Source of the DNA: Fictibacillus enclensis
GTDB taxonomy: Bacteria; Bacillota; Bacilli; Bacillales; Fictibacillaceae
Direction of reading: 5' to 3'
NCBI RefSeq assembly: GCF_001457035.1
Contig: NZ_KQ758622.1
Location: 1 to 64,000, forward strand
Length of the DNA stretch: 64,000 nt
Both the position numbers and the translations under genes were made by a program. Numbering within the stretch: position 1 is the stretch's first letter; each line of letters starts with the position of its first letter. The notes beneath the pieces are model-generated. The model was given only the letters and a program-made list of their open reading frames with translations. It was not told where the DNA came from and did not search any database. Shown one piece after another: positions 4,685 to 11,319 of this stretch.

Positions 4685-5134
4685 ATGGAGGAGACGTTCA
4701 CATACAGGTTGGCAACGGTTCATGATCTTCAGGATATTATAGAGATTGAACATGCTTCCTTTACGCTGCCCTGGACGCAGGAGGCGTTTTACAACGAGAT
4801 TGTGCATAATCAATTTGCCTATTATCTTTTGATCGAGGCAGACGGCAGGACGGTTGGTTACTGCGGTGTCTGGGTGATCATTGATGATGCGCATATCACC
4901 AATGTGGCGATCCGTCCCGAATACCGGGGCAGAAAGCTCGGAGAAGCGATTATGCGCCAGGCGATGCATCTGGCCGGAAGGTATGGTGCAGCAAGGCTGA
5001 GCCTTGAGGTTAGAGTGACCAATTATGTGGCACAGAATTTATACCGCAAGCTCGGTTTCCAGGATGGCGGTATCCGAAAAAATTATTACAGCGACAACGG
5101 GGAAGACGCGTTAGTCATGTGGGTGATGCTTTAA
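4685..5134 (+). CDS. rimI: Ribosomal protein bS18-alanine N-acetyltransferase RimI
   Basis: GNAT acetyltransferase of about 149 residues. The acetyl-CoA loop [12 protein letters not shown] is in the middle and a C-terminal LYRKLGF motif is present. RimI acetylates the N-terminus of ribosomal protein S18 in E. coli and lies in the t6A operon in most Firmicutes. Start chosen at ATG 4685 because AGGTG at 4674-4678 gives correct spacing; GTG 4676 lies inside it. The stop overlaps the tsaD start by one base (TAATG). Confidence 0.9.
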
Positions 5135-6150
5135 TGAAACTAGATGAAATCATATTATCAATTGAAACGAGCTGTGACGAAACAGCTGTGGCACTGATCA
5201 AAAACGGCACCGAGATTCTCGCAAATGTTGTGGCTTCACAGATTGAAAGCCATAAACGGTTCGGCGGGGTGGTTCCGGAAATAGCTTCACGCCATCATGT
5301 GGAACAGATGACGGTCGTGACGGAGGAAGCATTACAGCAGGCAGGGCTGACGATGGACGACGTGACCGCTGTGGCGGTAACGGAAGGTCCGGGGCTTGTC
5401 GGAGCGCTTTTGATCGGAGTGAACGCAGCCAAGGCGCTGGCGTTTGCTCATGGTCTGCCGCTGGTGCCGGTGCATCATATTGCGGGTCATATCTATGCTA
5501 ACCGCCTGATCACTGAAATGAAGTTTCCACTCTTGGCCCTTGTAGTTTCAGGAGGGCATACCGAACTTGTTCTGATGAAAGAGCACGGATCATTTGAGGT
5601 GATTGGCGAGACGCGGGACGACGCAGCGGGAGAAGCCTATGACAAAGTAGCTCGTACGCTCAACCTTCCGTATCCGGGAGGTCCGCATATCGATAAGCTC
5701 GCACAAAACGGGGAACCGGTGCTGAAGCTTCCTCGGGCCTGGCTTGAGCCGGATTCGTATGACTTCAGCTTCAGCGGACTTAAATCGGCTGTGATCAATA
5801 CGGTTCATAATGCCGCCCAGCGCGGAGAAACTATCCGACCAGAAGACCTGGCCGCAAGTTTCCAGGCTTCCGTCGTCGAAGTGCTTGTGGAAAAAACCGC
5901 ACGTGCCGCACGGGAATATGACGTCAAGCAAGTGTTGCTGGCTGGTGGTGTAGCGGCGAACCAGGGACTGCGCAAGGCGCTGGCAGAGCGTTTCTCGGAT
6001 CTTCCACAGGAGCTTGTCGTTCCGCCGCTTTACTTATGCACAGATAACGCAGCGATGATTGGTGCTGCGGGCAGTGTAGCTTATCAAAAAGGCAAAAGAG
6101 CCGACTGGGCGCTCAATGGCGTGCCGGGCCTGGATCTGGAAGCTCAATAA
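5134..6150 (+). CDS. tsaD: tRNA threonylcarbamoyltransferase TsaD (Gcp)
   Basis: 338 residues. TsaD transfers threonylcarbamoyl from threonylcarbamoyl-AMP to A37 of tRNA. The Kae1/TsaD signatures are clear: [11 protein letters not shown] at the N-terminus, metal-binding [11 protein letters not shown] near residue 110, and [12 protein letters not shown] and CTDNAAMIG near the C-terminus. Start placed at ATG 5134, which shares one base with the rimI stop; GTG 5119 is less likely. A strong terminator follows. Confidence 0.95.
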
Positions 6151-6156
6151 ATCGAG

Positions 6157-6195
6157 AAAATCCCTTCTTATCAACAGGTAAGAAGGGATTTTATT
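6157..6195 (+). terminator. Terminator of the thiL-tsaD operon
   Basis: AAAATCCCTTCTTA pairs perfectly with TAAGAAGGGATTTT; the 3' arm ends in a T-rich tail. Confidence 0.9.
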
Positions 6196-6211
6196 GTTCT
6201 TTGCTCCTCAT

Positions 6212-6401
6212 TGTGGATGTGGACAAACTTATCCACAGGTCAGACGAATTTGTGTGTAAATAAAATGAAAGCAGAAAAACCACGAATTCCAGCTGTGTAT
6301 AAAATTCTGTGGATAACTATCAATCGACCTGTGGATAATGTGCATAAGTGTGTGAATTGTGGATTTTTCTCCTGTTTTTATGTGTATAAGTATGTGGATA
6401 C
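6212..6401. promoter_or_regulatory. DnaA-box cluster downstream of tsaD
   Basis: Three perfect DnaA boxes: TTATCCACA at 6229-6237 (+) and TGTGGATAA at 6308-6316 and 6330-6338. Five more have one mismatch: 6218-6226, 6294-6302, 6339-6347, 6381-6389 and 6393-6401. All but one point the same way. B. subtilis has a DnaA-box cluster beside the same gene (gcp), one of several chromosomal clusters thought to titrate DnaA and limit initiation, so this is probably its counterpart. Confidence 0.85.
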
Positions 6402-6420
6402 TGTGAATTGTTTAAAAAAT

Positions 6421-6448
6421 AAAACAATGGCACTTGGCCATTGTTTTA
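6421..6448. terminator. Terminator of ydiF, overlapping its stop codon
   Basis: AAAACAATGGC / GCCATTGTTTT with a four-base loop. The stem includes the stop codon of ydiF on the minus strand and has T runs on both strands, so it could act both ways. Confidence 0.8.
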
Positions 6449-8386
6449 ATTCTCTTCTTGAAGTTGTTCCCATTCTTCCATCAACTGTTCCATCTCGGCG
6501 CTCAGTGCCTCGATCTGCTCATTGTGATCCTGCGTTTTTTCATAGTCCTGAAAGATCTCAGGATCGCACAAGGCTTCTTCGTGCTCGGCCTGGCGTGCTT
6601 CAAGGGTTTCAAGAAGGCCTTCAATTTCTTCAATCCTTCTCAGGCGTTTCCGGTCTTCCCGTTTGGCGGCTTTATCCTGACGATAGCTGCCGATGGGTGG
6701 TTCATCTGTTTTGGCGGAAGGGGCAGAGGCTTCCTGGCTTTTTTTCAGGTATTCTTCCCGTTCTCTCGTTTCTGTTTTCTTATCCACATAATAATCGTAG
6801 TCACCGAGATAGTTTGTGATTTGGGTGCGCGACAGTTCGGCGACCTTTGTTGCGATCCTGTTGATAAAGTAACGGTCATGGGAAACAAAGACGATCGTTC
6901 CCGGATAATTGATCAATGCCTGCTCGAGGACTTCCTTGCTGTCGAGGTCCAGGTGGTTCGTCGGTTCGTCCAGAAGAAGCAGATTCGCTTTTTGCATCAT
7001 CAGCTTGGCAAGAGCGAGCCGTGCTTTTTGGCCGCCGCTCAGCTCGTTGACAAGCTTTAGTACATCGTCACCGCTAAACAGAAAGTTTCCGAGAACGGTG
7101 CGAATCTCTTTTTCCGTTTTGTCCGGATATTCATCCCACAGCTCGTTCAGCAGGGTTTTCCGGGAGTTCAGGTTGGCCTGCTCCTGCTCGTAATGGCCGA
7201 TCTTCACATTGGCTCCGTACCGGATGGTGCCGTCAAGGAGTGGCAGCTGTTTTAAAACGGCCTTCAGCAGGGTGGACTTGCCGATACCGTTCGGCCCGAC
7301 AAGCGCTACCGCATCCTGACGGGATACATCGTAATTGATGTTGGTGATGAGCGGCACTCCGTCCTCATAGCCCGTGGCCACATGTTCAAGCTTCAGCACG
7401 TCATTCCCGCTCTGCCGCTCAATATCAAACATGAAGGAAGCCGACTTCTCATCACCGAGCGGCCTGTCCATCACTTCCATACGCTCGAGCTGTTTTCTTC
7501 GGCTTTGCGCACGTTTGGTGGTGGAGGCACGAACCAGGTTTTTCTGGACAAAGTCCTGCAGCTTGGCGATTTCGTCCTGCTGCTTTTCGTACGCCTTCAT
7601 GTCGAGCGCGAGCCGCTCGGCCTTCTGCTCCAGAAACTGCGTGTAGTTTCCTTTGTATTTGAAGGAGCGATGCCGGGTAATTTCATAGACCGTCGTTACG
7701 ATTTTGTCCAGGAAATAACGGTCATGGGATACGAGCAGAATGGCGCCCGGATAGGACTGCAGGTATTGCTCCAGCCAGGAAAGCGTCTCGATGTCCAGAT
7801 GGTTGGTCGGCTCATCAAGGATCAAAAGATCCGGCTTGGTAAGGAGCAGCTTGGCCAGGGCCAGCCGTGTTTTCTGTCCGCCGCTTAAGGTTGCGACAGG
7901 TGTTGCAGGGTCAAAGTCTGCGAACTGAAACCCGTGGAGGACGGTCCGCATTTCCGCTTCGTACTGATAGCCTCCCGCTTCTTTAAATGTGATCTGCAGC
8001 TCGTCATACTCCTTTAGGAGTTTATTGTAGCTGTTTTCGTCTTCAATCAGCGCAGGGTCGCCCATGCGGCTTTCCATGCTGCGCAGCTGTCTTTCCATTT
8101 TACGAAGCGGTTCAAACACACTCAGCATCTCATCCCAGATAGAGAGGCTTGATTCAAGGCCGGTGTGCTGTGCGAGATAGCCCACCTTGACTCCTTTTGG
8201 CATAATAAGCTGTCCGGAGTCATAGGACAGGTCGCCCGTTATGATCTTCAACAGCGTGGATTTGCCCGCTCCGTTTCTTCCAACAAGCGCGATTCTGTCG
8301 CGTGTTTGGACTTCGAGCTTAATATTCGATAAAATAGGGTCAGCCCCAAACGATTTTGTTAAGTCATTCACTTGCAAAATAATCAC
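6446..8386 (-). CDS. ydiF: ABC-F family ATP-binding protein YdiF
   Basis: 646 residues with two ABC ATPase domains and no membrane segments. Walker A GRNGAGKST (about 37) and GPNGIGKST (about 356); ABC signatures LSGGQKTRLALAKLL and LSGGQKARLALAKLM; Walker B LLILDEPTNHLD and LLLLDEPTNHLD. The linker and a long charged coiled-coil tail match the ABC-F ribosome factors. Likely acts on stalled ribosomes. GTG start at 8386 behind GAGGTGA. Transcribed against the thiL operon and away from moaC. Confidence 0.93.
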   Translation of the reverse strand: MIILQVNDLTKSFGADPILSNIKLEVQTRDRIALVGRNGAGKSTLLKIITGDLSYDSGQLIMPKGVKVGYLAQHTGLESSLSIWDEMLSVFEPLRKMERQLRSMESRMGDPALIEDENSYNKLLKEYDELQITFKEAGGYQYEAEMRTVLHGFQFADFDPATPVATLSGGQKTRLALAKLLLTKPDLLILDEPTNHLDIETLSWLEQYLQSYPGAILLVSHDRYFLDKIVTTVYEITRHRSFKYKGNYTQFLEQKAERLALDMKAYEKQQDEIAKLQDFVQKNLVRASTTKRAQSRRKQLERMEVMDRPLGDEKSASFMFDIERQSGNDVLKLEHVATGYEDGVPLITNINYDVSRQDAVALVGPNGIGKSTLLKAVLKQLPLLDGTIRYGANVKIGHYEQEQANLNSRKTLLNELWDEYPDKTEKEIRTVLGNFLFSGDDVLKLVNELSGGQKARLALAKLMMQKANLLLLDEPTNHLDLDSKEVLEQALINYPGTIVFVSHDRYFINRIATKVAELSRTQITNYLGDYDYYVDKKTETREREEYLKKSQEASAPSAKTDEPPIGSYRQDKAAKREDRKRLRRIEEIEGLLETLEARQAEHEEALCDPEIFQDYEKTQDHNEQIEALSAEMEQLMEEWEQLQEEN

Positions 8387-10824: not shown

Positions 10825-10882
10825 GTTTTGGTGATCATTGGTGCCTTTGAGGGTAGTTGATATCCGTGGGCGGGCGCTGAGC

Positions 10883-11029
10883 CTTACCGGCGTAAACGCC
10901 TCCCTTACCGGCGTAAACGCCTCCCTTACCGGCGTAAACGCCTCCCTTACCGGCGTAAACGCCTACCTTACCGGCGTAAACGCCTACCTTACCGGCGTAA
11001 ACGCCTACCTTACCGGCGTAAACGCCTAC
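10883..11029. repeat. 21-bp tandem array B (7 units)
   Basis: Seven nearly identical 21-bp units start at 10883, 10904, 10925, 10946, 10967, 10988 and 11009. The core is CTTACCGGCGTAAACGCCT followed by CC in units 1-3 and AC in units 4-7. Within each unit GGCG-TAAA-CGCC can form a small hairpin. A frame is open through it because 21 is a multiple of three, but no good ribosome site supports translation. It begins about 60 bp after the tatC terminator. Confidence 0.92.
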
Positions 11030-11055
11030 CTGGTCTCATCTGTACCGTTTTTACT

Positions 11056-11135
11056 GCTGGACAAGGAACGCCTCGGCAGCGATCCATCGCACGAAGAAAA
11101 TGTGGTGTTCATTTTCGAGGAGTCTCGCACCTTGC
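11056..11135 (-). repeat. Interspersed repeat, truncated minus-strand copy
   Basis: The reverse complement of this segment matches 60014-60092 at roughly nine bases in ten, sharing GCGAGACTCCTCGAAAATGA and CGTTCCTTGTCC-like blocks. Only the left half of the longer copy is present. It abuts 21-bp array B. The rest of 11136-11300 shows no gene. Confidence 0.75.
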
Positions 11136-11319
11136 ACTTCAATCAACCGCATGGGGGCATTTTACCAATCCAAAACTCCTCGCTGTAAAATAGGATAGAG
11201 AAGTGAACGTGTCGATCATGGTCGAAAAGGGAATACTTAGAAAATAGCCCTTATAAATGGACACCTAGAGCGGGTTTACTGATAATGAAAGATAAATCAG
11301 AAGAAGAGAAGGAGATAGG

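Follow-up and report, generated by a model that had tools for sequence, protein, structure and literature searches.

An ordered array of DnaA boxes behind tsaD in Fictibacillus enclensis, probably inherited from before the split of Bacilli and Clostridia

What does a dense group of predicted DnaA boxes do between the 3' ends of two convergent genes? We consider this question for a stretch of 64,000 nucleotides from Fictibacillus enclensis (here called the window, always at its full length), where such a group occupies positions 6212-6401. We think it probable, at roughly two chances in three, that this cluster is the orthologue of the Bacillus subtilis gcp/ydiF cluster with an ancestry before the Bacilli-Clostridia split, and that DnaA assembles on it in an ordered way close to oriC, so that DnaA, chiefly in its ATP form, is sequestered once the fork has passed. 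The parts of the locus are as follows, with layout positions counted from the first box of a central tandem pair.

5134..6150, plus strand: tsaD (gcp), from the ORF list, TIGR03723 (NCBIfam) at 442 bits, cut-off 296; last gene of thiL-tsaE-tsaB-rimI-tsaD
6157..6192, plus strand: intrinsic terminator of tsaD, a 16-pair stem and T-rich tail, -22.8 kcal/mol, z -6.1
6218..6226, minus strand: predicted DnaA box TTGTCCACA, position -112
6229..6237, plus strand: predicted DnaA box TTATCCACA, position -101, the sole box on the tsaD strand
6251..6263, minus strand: two overlapping weak boxes TTACACACA / TTATTTACA, positions -79/-75; an exact box stands there in relatives L005 and L010
6294..6302, minus strand: predicted DnaA box TTATACACA, position -36
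6308..6316, minus strand: predicted DnaA box TTATCCACA, position -22 (Bacilli)
6330..6338, minus strand: predicted DnaA box TTATCCACA, position 0, first of the head-to-tail tandem pair
6339..6347, minus strand: predicted DnaA box TTATGCACA, position +9, second of the tandem pair
6381..6389, minus strand: predicted DnaA box TTATACACA, position +51
6393..6401, minus strand: predicted DnaA box GTATCCACA, position +63
6402..6410, minus strand: degenerate box CAATTCACA, position +72, two mismatches; a box with at most one mismatch is found at this +72/+73 place in relatives L005-L007, L023, L027 and L028
6420..6448, minus strand: intrinsic terminator of ydiF, -17.6 kcal/mol, z -5.7, a hairpin on both strands
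6446..8386, minus strand: ydiF-like ABC-F protein, NF000355 at 482.7 bits, cut-off 380, convergent with tsaD

In the gene row that ends with tsaD, the name of tsaB was checked by an NCBIfam-type profile test, unlike those of thiL, tsaE and rimI, which we presume from their sequences. At 10838-11188 the window also holds an ORF of direct repeats (SLTGVNA/YLTGVNA units) that resembles a short tandem repeat array.

Counting TTATNCACA, exact or with one mismatch, as a box, we found six exact and four one-mismatch boxes in 6212-6401, a content far beyond chance. The preliminary description had reported eight boxes in 190 bp, three of them perfect, and this was borne out: eight stronger boxes start at 6218-, 6229+, 6294-, 6308-, 6330-, 6339-, 6381- and 6393-, those at 6229, 6308 and 6330 being perfect TTATCCACA, and two weaker one-mismatch boxes (6251-, 6255-) bring the total to ten. 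A density equal to that of random sequence of the same composition, which the same description had named as telling against its reading, was not what we saw, since 2000 dinucleotide shuffles of these 190 bp gave at most two exact boxes (mean 0.05) and at most four of both kinds together (mean 0.72). Within the window no other 190 bp held more than three boxes, six of the ten exact boxes fall inside the cluster, and nine of the ten within 4801-6788. Across the whole genome TTATNCACA occurs 178 times vs. 100 for its reversed control, and exact same-strand boxes at most 30 bp apart mark four genome sites, the cluster among them, vs. none for the control.

Further exact boxes occur near the cluster, at 4801 in the rimI-like gene, at 6780 in ydiF and at 6034-6042 inside tsaD, where the box coincides with the codons of a conserved Leu-Cys-Thr (LCTDNA) and thus may exist owing to the protein. 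RNA of 6205-6350 folds better than its shuffles (z -3.85), probably because a 13-nt inverted repeat joins box 6229 with box 6330.

The available portion of a study of DnaA binding in B. subtilis (PMC4447404) places region no. 4 of its in vitro table 'downstream of gcp; downstream of ydiF' and ranks it with the strongest DnaA-binding sites there; its figures are ten boxes, a Kd of 0.15 uM (ATP) or 0.33 uM (ADP), and 16-fold more DNA recovered with ATP-DnaA at 55 nM. The F. enclensis cluster has the same place, with tsaD (gcp) and ydiF converging on it by their 3' ends, one terminator per gene, the same proximity to oriC and a like number of boxes (about ten within 300 bp; here 190 bp suffice). 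That it is the counterpart of the gcp cluster, as proposed from a first inspection, is therefore supported by the TIGR03723 match identifying TsaD (= Gcp), by the convergent ABC-F neighbour and by the matching location; judged from published location and box number, the two probably differ in nothing essential. In B. subtilis this is one of six clusters outside oriC, and the covered parts of two reviews (PMC13220808, PMC5295017) have the loss of all six together leading to early initiation.

Since the cluster lies between two convergent genes that are each terminated, neither gene is read from it, and few transcripts should run through. We accordingly rejected the idea that it controls tsaD or ydiF transcription in F. 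enclensis. The wider proposal, that DnaA bound at the cluster regulates transcription of some neighbour, can point to other B. subtilis clusters acting in promoters (PMC8203912, as far as its available text goes) and to the loci outside Bacilli, where the next ORF points away from tsaD in 44 of 55 cases and a promoter role is possible. We nevertheless hold it to be very unlikely, because 57 of 65 Bacilli loci have a convergent ORF as the next one after tsaD, because outside Bacilli the next gene varies with the lineage (among five tested, a Mur ligase, LGT, radical SAM twice and AMP-binding), and because the direct DnaA targets named in the covered part of the same paper include ywlC, yydA, trmE and sda, so that other strong clusters are represented, with gcp and ydiF not in the list.

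How far is the cluster inherited? Our sample of the order comprised 40 genomes (our own plus 39 relatives of its genus, family and order), all 40 with tsaD. The cluster lay at most 700 bp past the tsaD stop in 34 of them and further past it, by 0.75-6.9 kb, in five (L020, L025, L253, L254 and L255), while in the last (L038) the contig stops 43 bp after the tsaD stop; it is thus present in 39 of 39 readable genomes. For the phylum, 80 + 80 tsaD loci were fetched, the second 80 mostly one per family. A cluster (score of at least 2.3) occurred at most 600 bp 3' of tsaD in 106 of the 196 loci with at least 250 bp downstream, vs. none of the 196 in any of 20 shuffles and none of 116 coding stretches. 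With the range widened to 3.6 kb, positives numbered 69 of 89 loci on the Bacilli side and 56 of the 111 others, mostly Clostridia (L085 is the same as L169 and L091 the same as L212, and they entered these counts twice, before de-duplication). The synteny that the preliminary description had suggested looking for in other Bacillaceae therefore holds, and well beyond that family. Positive loci include Paenibacillus, Brevibacillus, Planococcus, Macrococcus, Jeotgalicoccus, Kroppenstedtia, Alkaliphilus, Thermincola, Thermovorax and Peptococcaceae.

Within the same 3.6 kb behind tsaD there was no cluster at 55 of the 111 non-Bacilli loci, some of which end at a contig edge. The nine loci outside Bacillota all lacked it behind tsaD (L087, L094, L095, L101, L103, L110, L116, L118 and L121), as did sampled Lactobacillales (L059, L061, L063, L067, L072, L074 and L077), Shouchella (L062) and, among others, four Lachnospiraceae loci (L090, L092, L096 and L105). 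The array is thus dispensable, being missing from sampled lineages; ydiF still stands next to tsaD in L062 and L072 although the array is gone. We also considered that the cluster might be bound to ydiF, and rejected this, since outside Bacilli it is found after tsaD without ydiF. In Paenibacillus-like loci, conversely, it lies 2.5-3.2 kb off tsaD and adjoins ydiF, so neither gene is strictly required. Relative to the literature searched, mostly open-access, this depth of conservation and the box layout are new, the window copy itself being of a known cluster type; the search for box spacing or for tsaD-linked clusters beyond Bacillus covered few subscription papers, with Okumura 2012 outside its scope, and returned no earlier report.

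The boxes are conserved in arrangement as well as in place. On the strand against tsaD, the Bacilli layout runs at about -113, -89, -80, -36, -22, 0, +9, +52, +64 and +73; that of the window runs at -112, -79/-75, -36, -22, 0, +9, +51, +63 plus a degenerate box at +72, the single box on the other strand lying at -101; and the fullest non-Bacilli cases (L216 and L222), renumbered from their tandem pair, run at -89, -80, -35, 0, +9, +53, +65 and +74. Nearly all boxes thus face against tsaD, with a gapless head-to-tail tandem pair at the centre and other boxes spaced about 43-45 bp from one another. Among the 55 non-Bacilli clusters left after de-duplication, same-strand distances of 9, 12, 21, 42-44, 54, 89 and 98 bp were enriched (9 bp in 49 vs. 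10.3 expected, 89 bp in 16 vs. 4.5 expected), as were 9, 12, 22, 31, 43, 86 and 95 bp among the 65 clusters of the Bacilli side. The triple of the left part of the array, '- 11/12 + 21/22 -', can in some genomes be seen upstream of dnaA too (oriC layout).

With the window layout as a template, the other 65 clusters on the Bacilli side, six of them from the window's own genus, gave a summed fit of 329, vs. a mean of 250 and a maximum of 265 for 200 gap permutations and 233 for the mirror image. The corresponding sum for 50 non-Bacilli clusters (five of the 55 were dropped for having fewer than four boxes on the strand) was 199, vs. a mean of 179 and a maximum of 194 for 200 permutations and 185 for the mirror. 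This non-Bacilli fit is clear for the sum and, individually, for some families (L160, L216, L222 and L153); against single Clostridia clusters the template was often at chance level, with p_rand above 0.1 in 20 of the best 30 of 50, and many of the Clostridia clusters are abridged to 9-12 or 12-9 triples and do not reach significance one by one. A leave-one-out joint alignment, with 20 permutations each, scored 0.433 vs. a permutation maximum of 0.323 for the 65 Bacilli clusters and 0.427 vs. 0.375 for the 50 non-Bacilli ones. All of these statistics take sequences that are kin by descent, so the spacing matches are not independent events.

Box order, strand and spacing are kept across relatives while the spacer sequence is near chance. 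In ungapped comparison of the window with four Bacilli clusters of other genera, identity was 0.49-0.59 in box columns and 0.28-0.35 in spacers, where 0.26-0.27 is expected. Compared in the same way with Clostridia, boxes gave 0.35-0.43 and spacers 0.25-0.36 (expectation 0.25-0.27), with shifts of 1-2 bp blurring the box columns, so that the claim of diverged spacers rests on the Bacilli pairs. Displaced copies 2-7 kb away retain the spacing. That the boxes built up by chance, or are inherited without function, would agree with the mild effect of single-cluster deletions in B. subtilis (according to the part of a review available, PMC5295017), but given the box density, and spacing kept between spacers at chance identity, we regard this explanation as practically negligible.

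The exact tandem pair TTATNCACATTATNCACA was found in 122 of 249 Bacillota genomes, its reversed control scoring 0 in every row. Among 110 listed pairs in 82 genomes, a count that leaves out 38 pair-bearing genomes whose tsaD position is missing from the tsaD listing, 54 lie at most 4 kb 3' of tsaD (49 of them at most 600 bp), every one of the 54 being oriented against tsaD. At pairs away from tsaD (L233-L237, L240 and L244) the layout 0, 9, 21, 53 recurs, in some with 98, 141 and 153 added. Such moved arrays belong to some families (f47, part of f35), lie about 20 kb off tsaD in L240 and L244, and have apparently been relocated as a unit.

The genome has two more clusters, upstream of tsaC (about 1501-1700 of L139, G000:C3:183563) and upstream of rlmH (about 1283-1560 of L138, C3:42372). 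We take tsaC to be B. subtilis ywlC and rlmH to be yydA, and the clusters to match those at ywlC and yydA, which are of high affinity in B. subtilis. They share box type and genome with the tsaD cluster and differ from it in standing upstream of their genes and in having other spacings. The tsaC cluster was found in 13 of 30 genomes and the rlmH cluster in 13 of 29, without exception in genomes of the Bacilli side; the 15 Clostridia-side genomes of this survey had been chosen for carrying the tsaD cluster, so for that side it shows only that the tsaC and rlmH clusters are absent from those genomes. The clusters adjoin RNA-modification genes (tsaD, tsaC and rlmH, plus trmE in B. subtilis), two of which serve the same t6A pathway. 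A separate site (about 1476-1553 of L136, G000:C1:1300378-1300412) carries three exact tandem boxes beside a 153-aa protein, for which no NCBIfam match was found.

Spacing of 0, +9 and about +52 is also present in six phage contig stretches from IMG/VR (L322-L327), without tsaD or ydiF; L327 has +64, +85, +97 and +118 in addition. Among the neighbours in the four stretches scanned are DNA methyltransferases, ParA/ParB-like proteins, an antirepressor and an endolysin-like protein. These arrays may be phage-borne DnaA traps or origins.

Turning to how the tsaD array would work, we observe the array itself, its flanking terminators, its inheritance, its spacing and its position. By analogy with the B. 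subtilis papers, DnaA of F. enclensis would bind it with high affinity and a preference for the ATP form, and its removal along with other clusters would favor early initiation. DnaA, with DnaA-ATP first, would fill the ordered boxes cooperatively as a defined oligomer, the spacing encoding that specific oligomer. Being close to oriC, the site would be copied by the fork soon after initiation, doubling the number of traps, and the two arrays would then compete with the two new origins for DnaA, drawing it from them and delaying the next initiation in F. enclensis. In 12 Bacilli the distance from tsaD to dnaA amounts to 5.6-16.7% of the chromosome (median 8.8%), tsaD lying on one arm or the other; in 15 other genomes it is 10.1-26.6% (median 16.7%). 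Conserved genes tend toward the origin in general, so this position is consistent with the model and not decisive.

The preliminary description had the cluster buffering DnaA, which sums up the B. subtilis literature fairly and is too weak for an anatomy with conserved box spacing, because plain buffering would need none. That a pure sink has no need of fixed geometry argues against simple titration, as does the report in the available part of a 2026 review (PMC13220808) that a ten-fold excess of DnaA in B. subtilis brings no over-initiation.

Because spacing matters for E. coli datA (PMC4585315, portion available), the main rival is a catalytic control site like datA or DARS, at which an ordered complex speeds ATP hydrolysis or nucleotide exchange and so changes the state of DnaA. 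The tsaD cluster resembles datA as a non-coding DnaA-box cluster near oriC with a presumed negative control, and its spacing is under constraint by the distance, template and alignment tests, with diverged spacers; the strong ATP preference in B. subtilis (PMC4447404) fits as well, and how B. subtilis controls the nucleotide state of DnaA is, in the covered text of the 2026 review, unknown. However, datA consists of five boxes and an IHF site and its hydrolysis depends on IHF, whereas B. subtilis is without IHF (PMC13220808); no sequence kinship is expected; the literature, so far as covered, reports no such activity; and cooperative binding alone would also give a fixed geometry. DARS1 and DARS2 are likewise small non-coding groups of DnaA boxes in a set arrangement, but they have a three-box core, with Fis/IHF at DARS2, and they reactivate DnaA; this positive action is opposite in sign to that of the B. 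subtilis clusters as a group, whose removal leads to early initiation. We think catalytic control unlikely.

A bound array might instead serve chromosome architecture, for example as a bridge to oriC through DnaA-DnaA contacts. Tandem pairs and boxes oriented on a single strand fit an oligomer, and oriC loops in B. subtilis (PMC5295017, as far as available), but the B. subtilis reviews, in the parts covered, treat the clusters as binding sites only, and we rate this role as highly improbable.

Ordered assembly with sequestration of DnaA remains our preferred reading, and it leaves room for a bolder proposal that we put forward tentatively, as doubtful yet tenable. The array could be an ancestral Bacillota counterpart of datA/DARS, a geometry-coded assembly behind tsaD that predates the Bacilli-Clostridia split and alters DnaA activity beyond the free amount, and the look-alike arrays that some phages of these hosts carry could interfere with host initiation. 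For B. subtilis, the 2026 review (PMC13220808, portion available) states that datA and DARS are absent and that the existence of any regulators of the DnaA ATP/ADP balance is unknown; a layout kept across Bacilli and Clostridia makes the tsaD array a concrete candidate for such a regulator. Among the clusters outside oriC that we tested, the one at tsaD is the old one, those at tsaC and rlmH looking younger, and its conserved layout offers a defined target for mutation.
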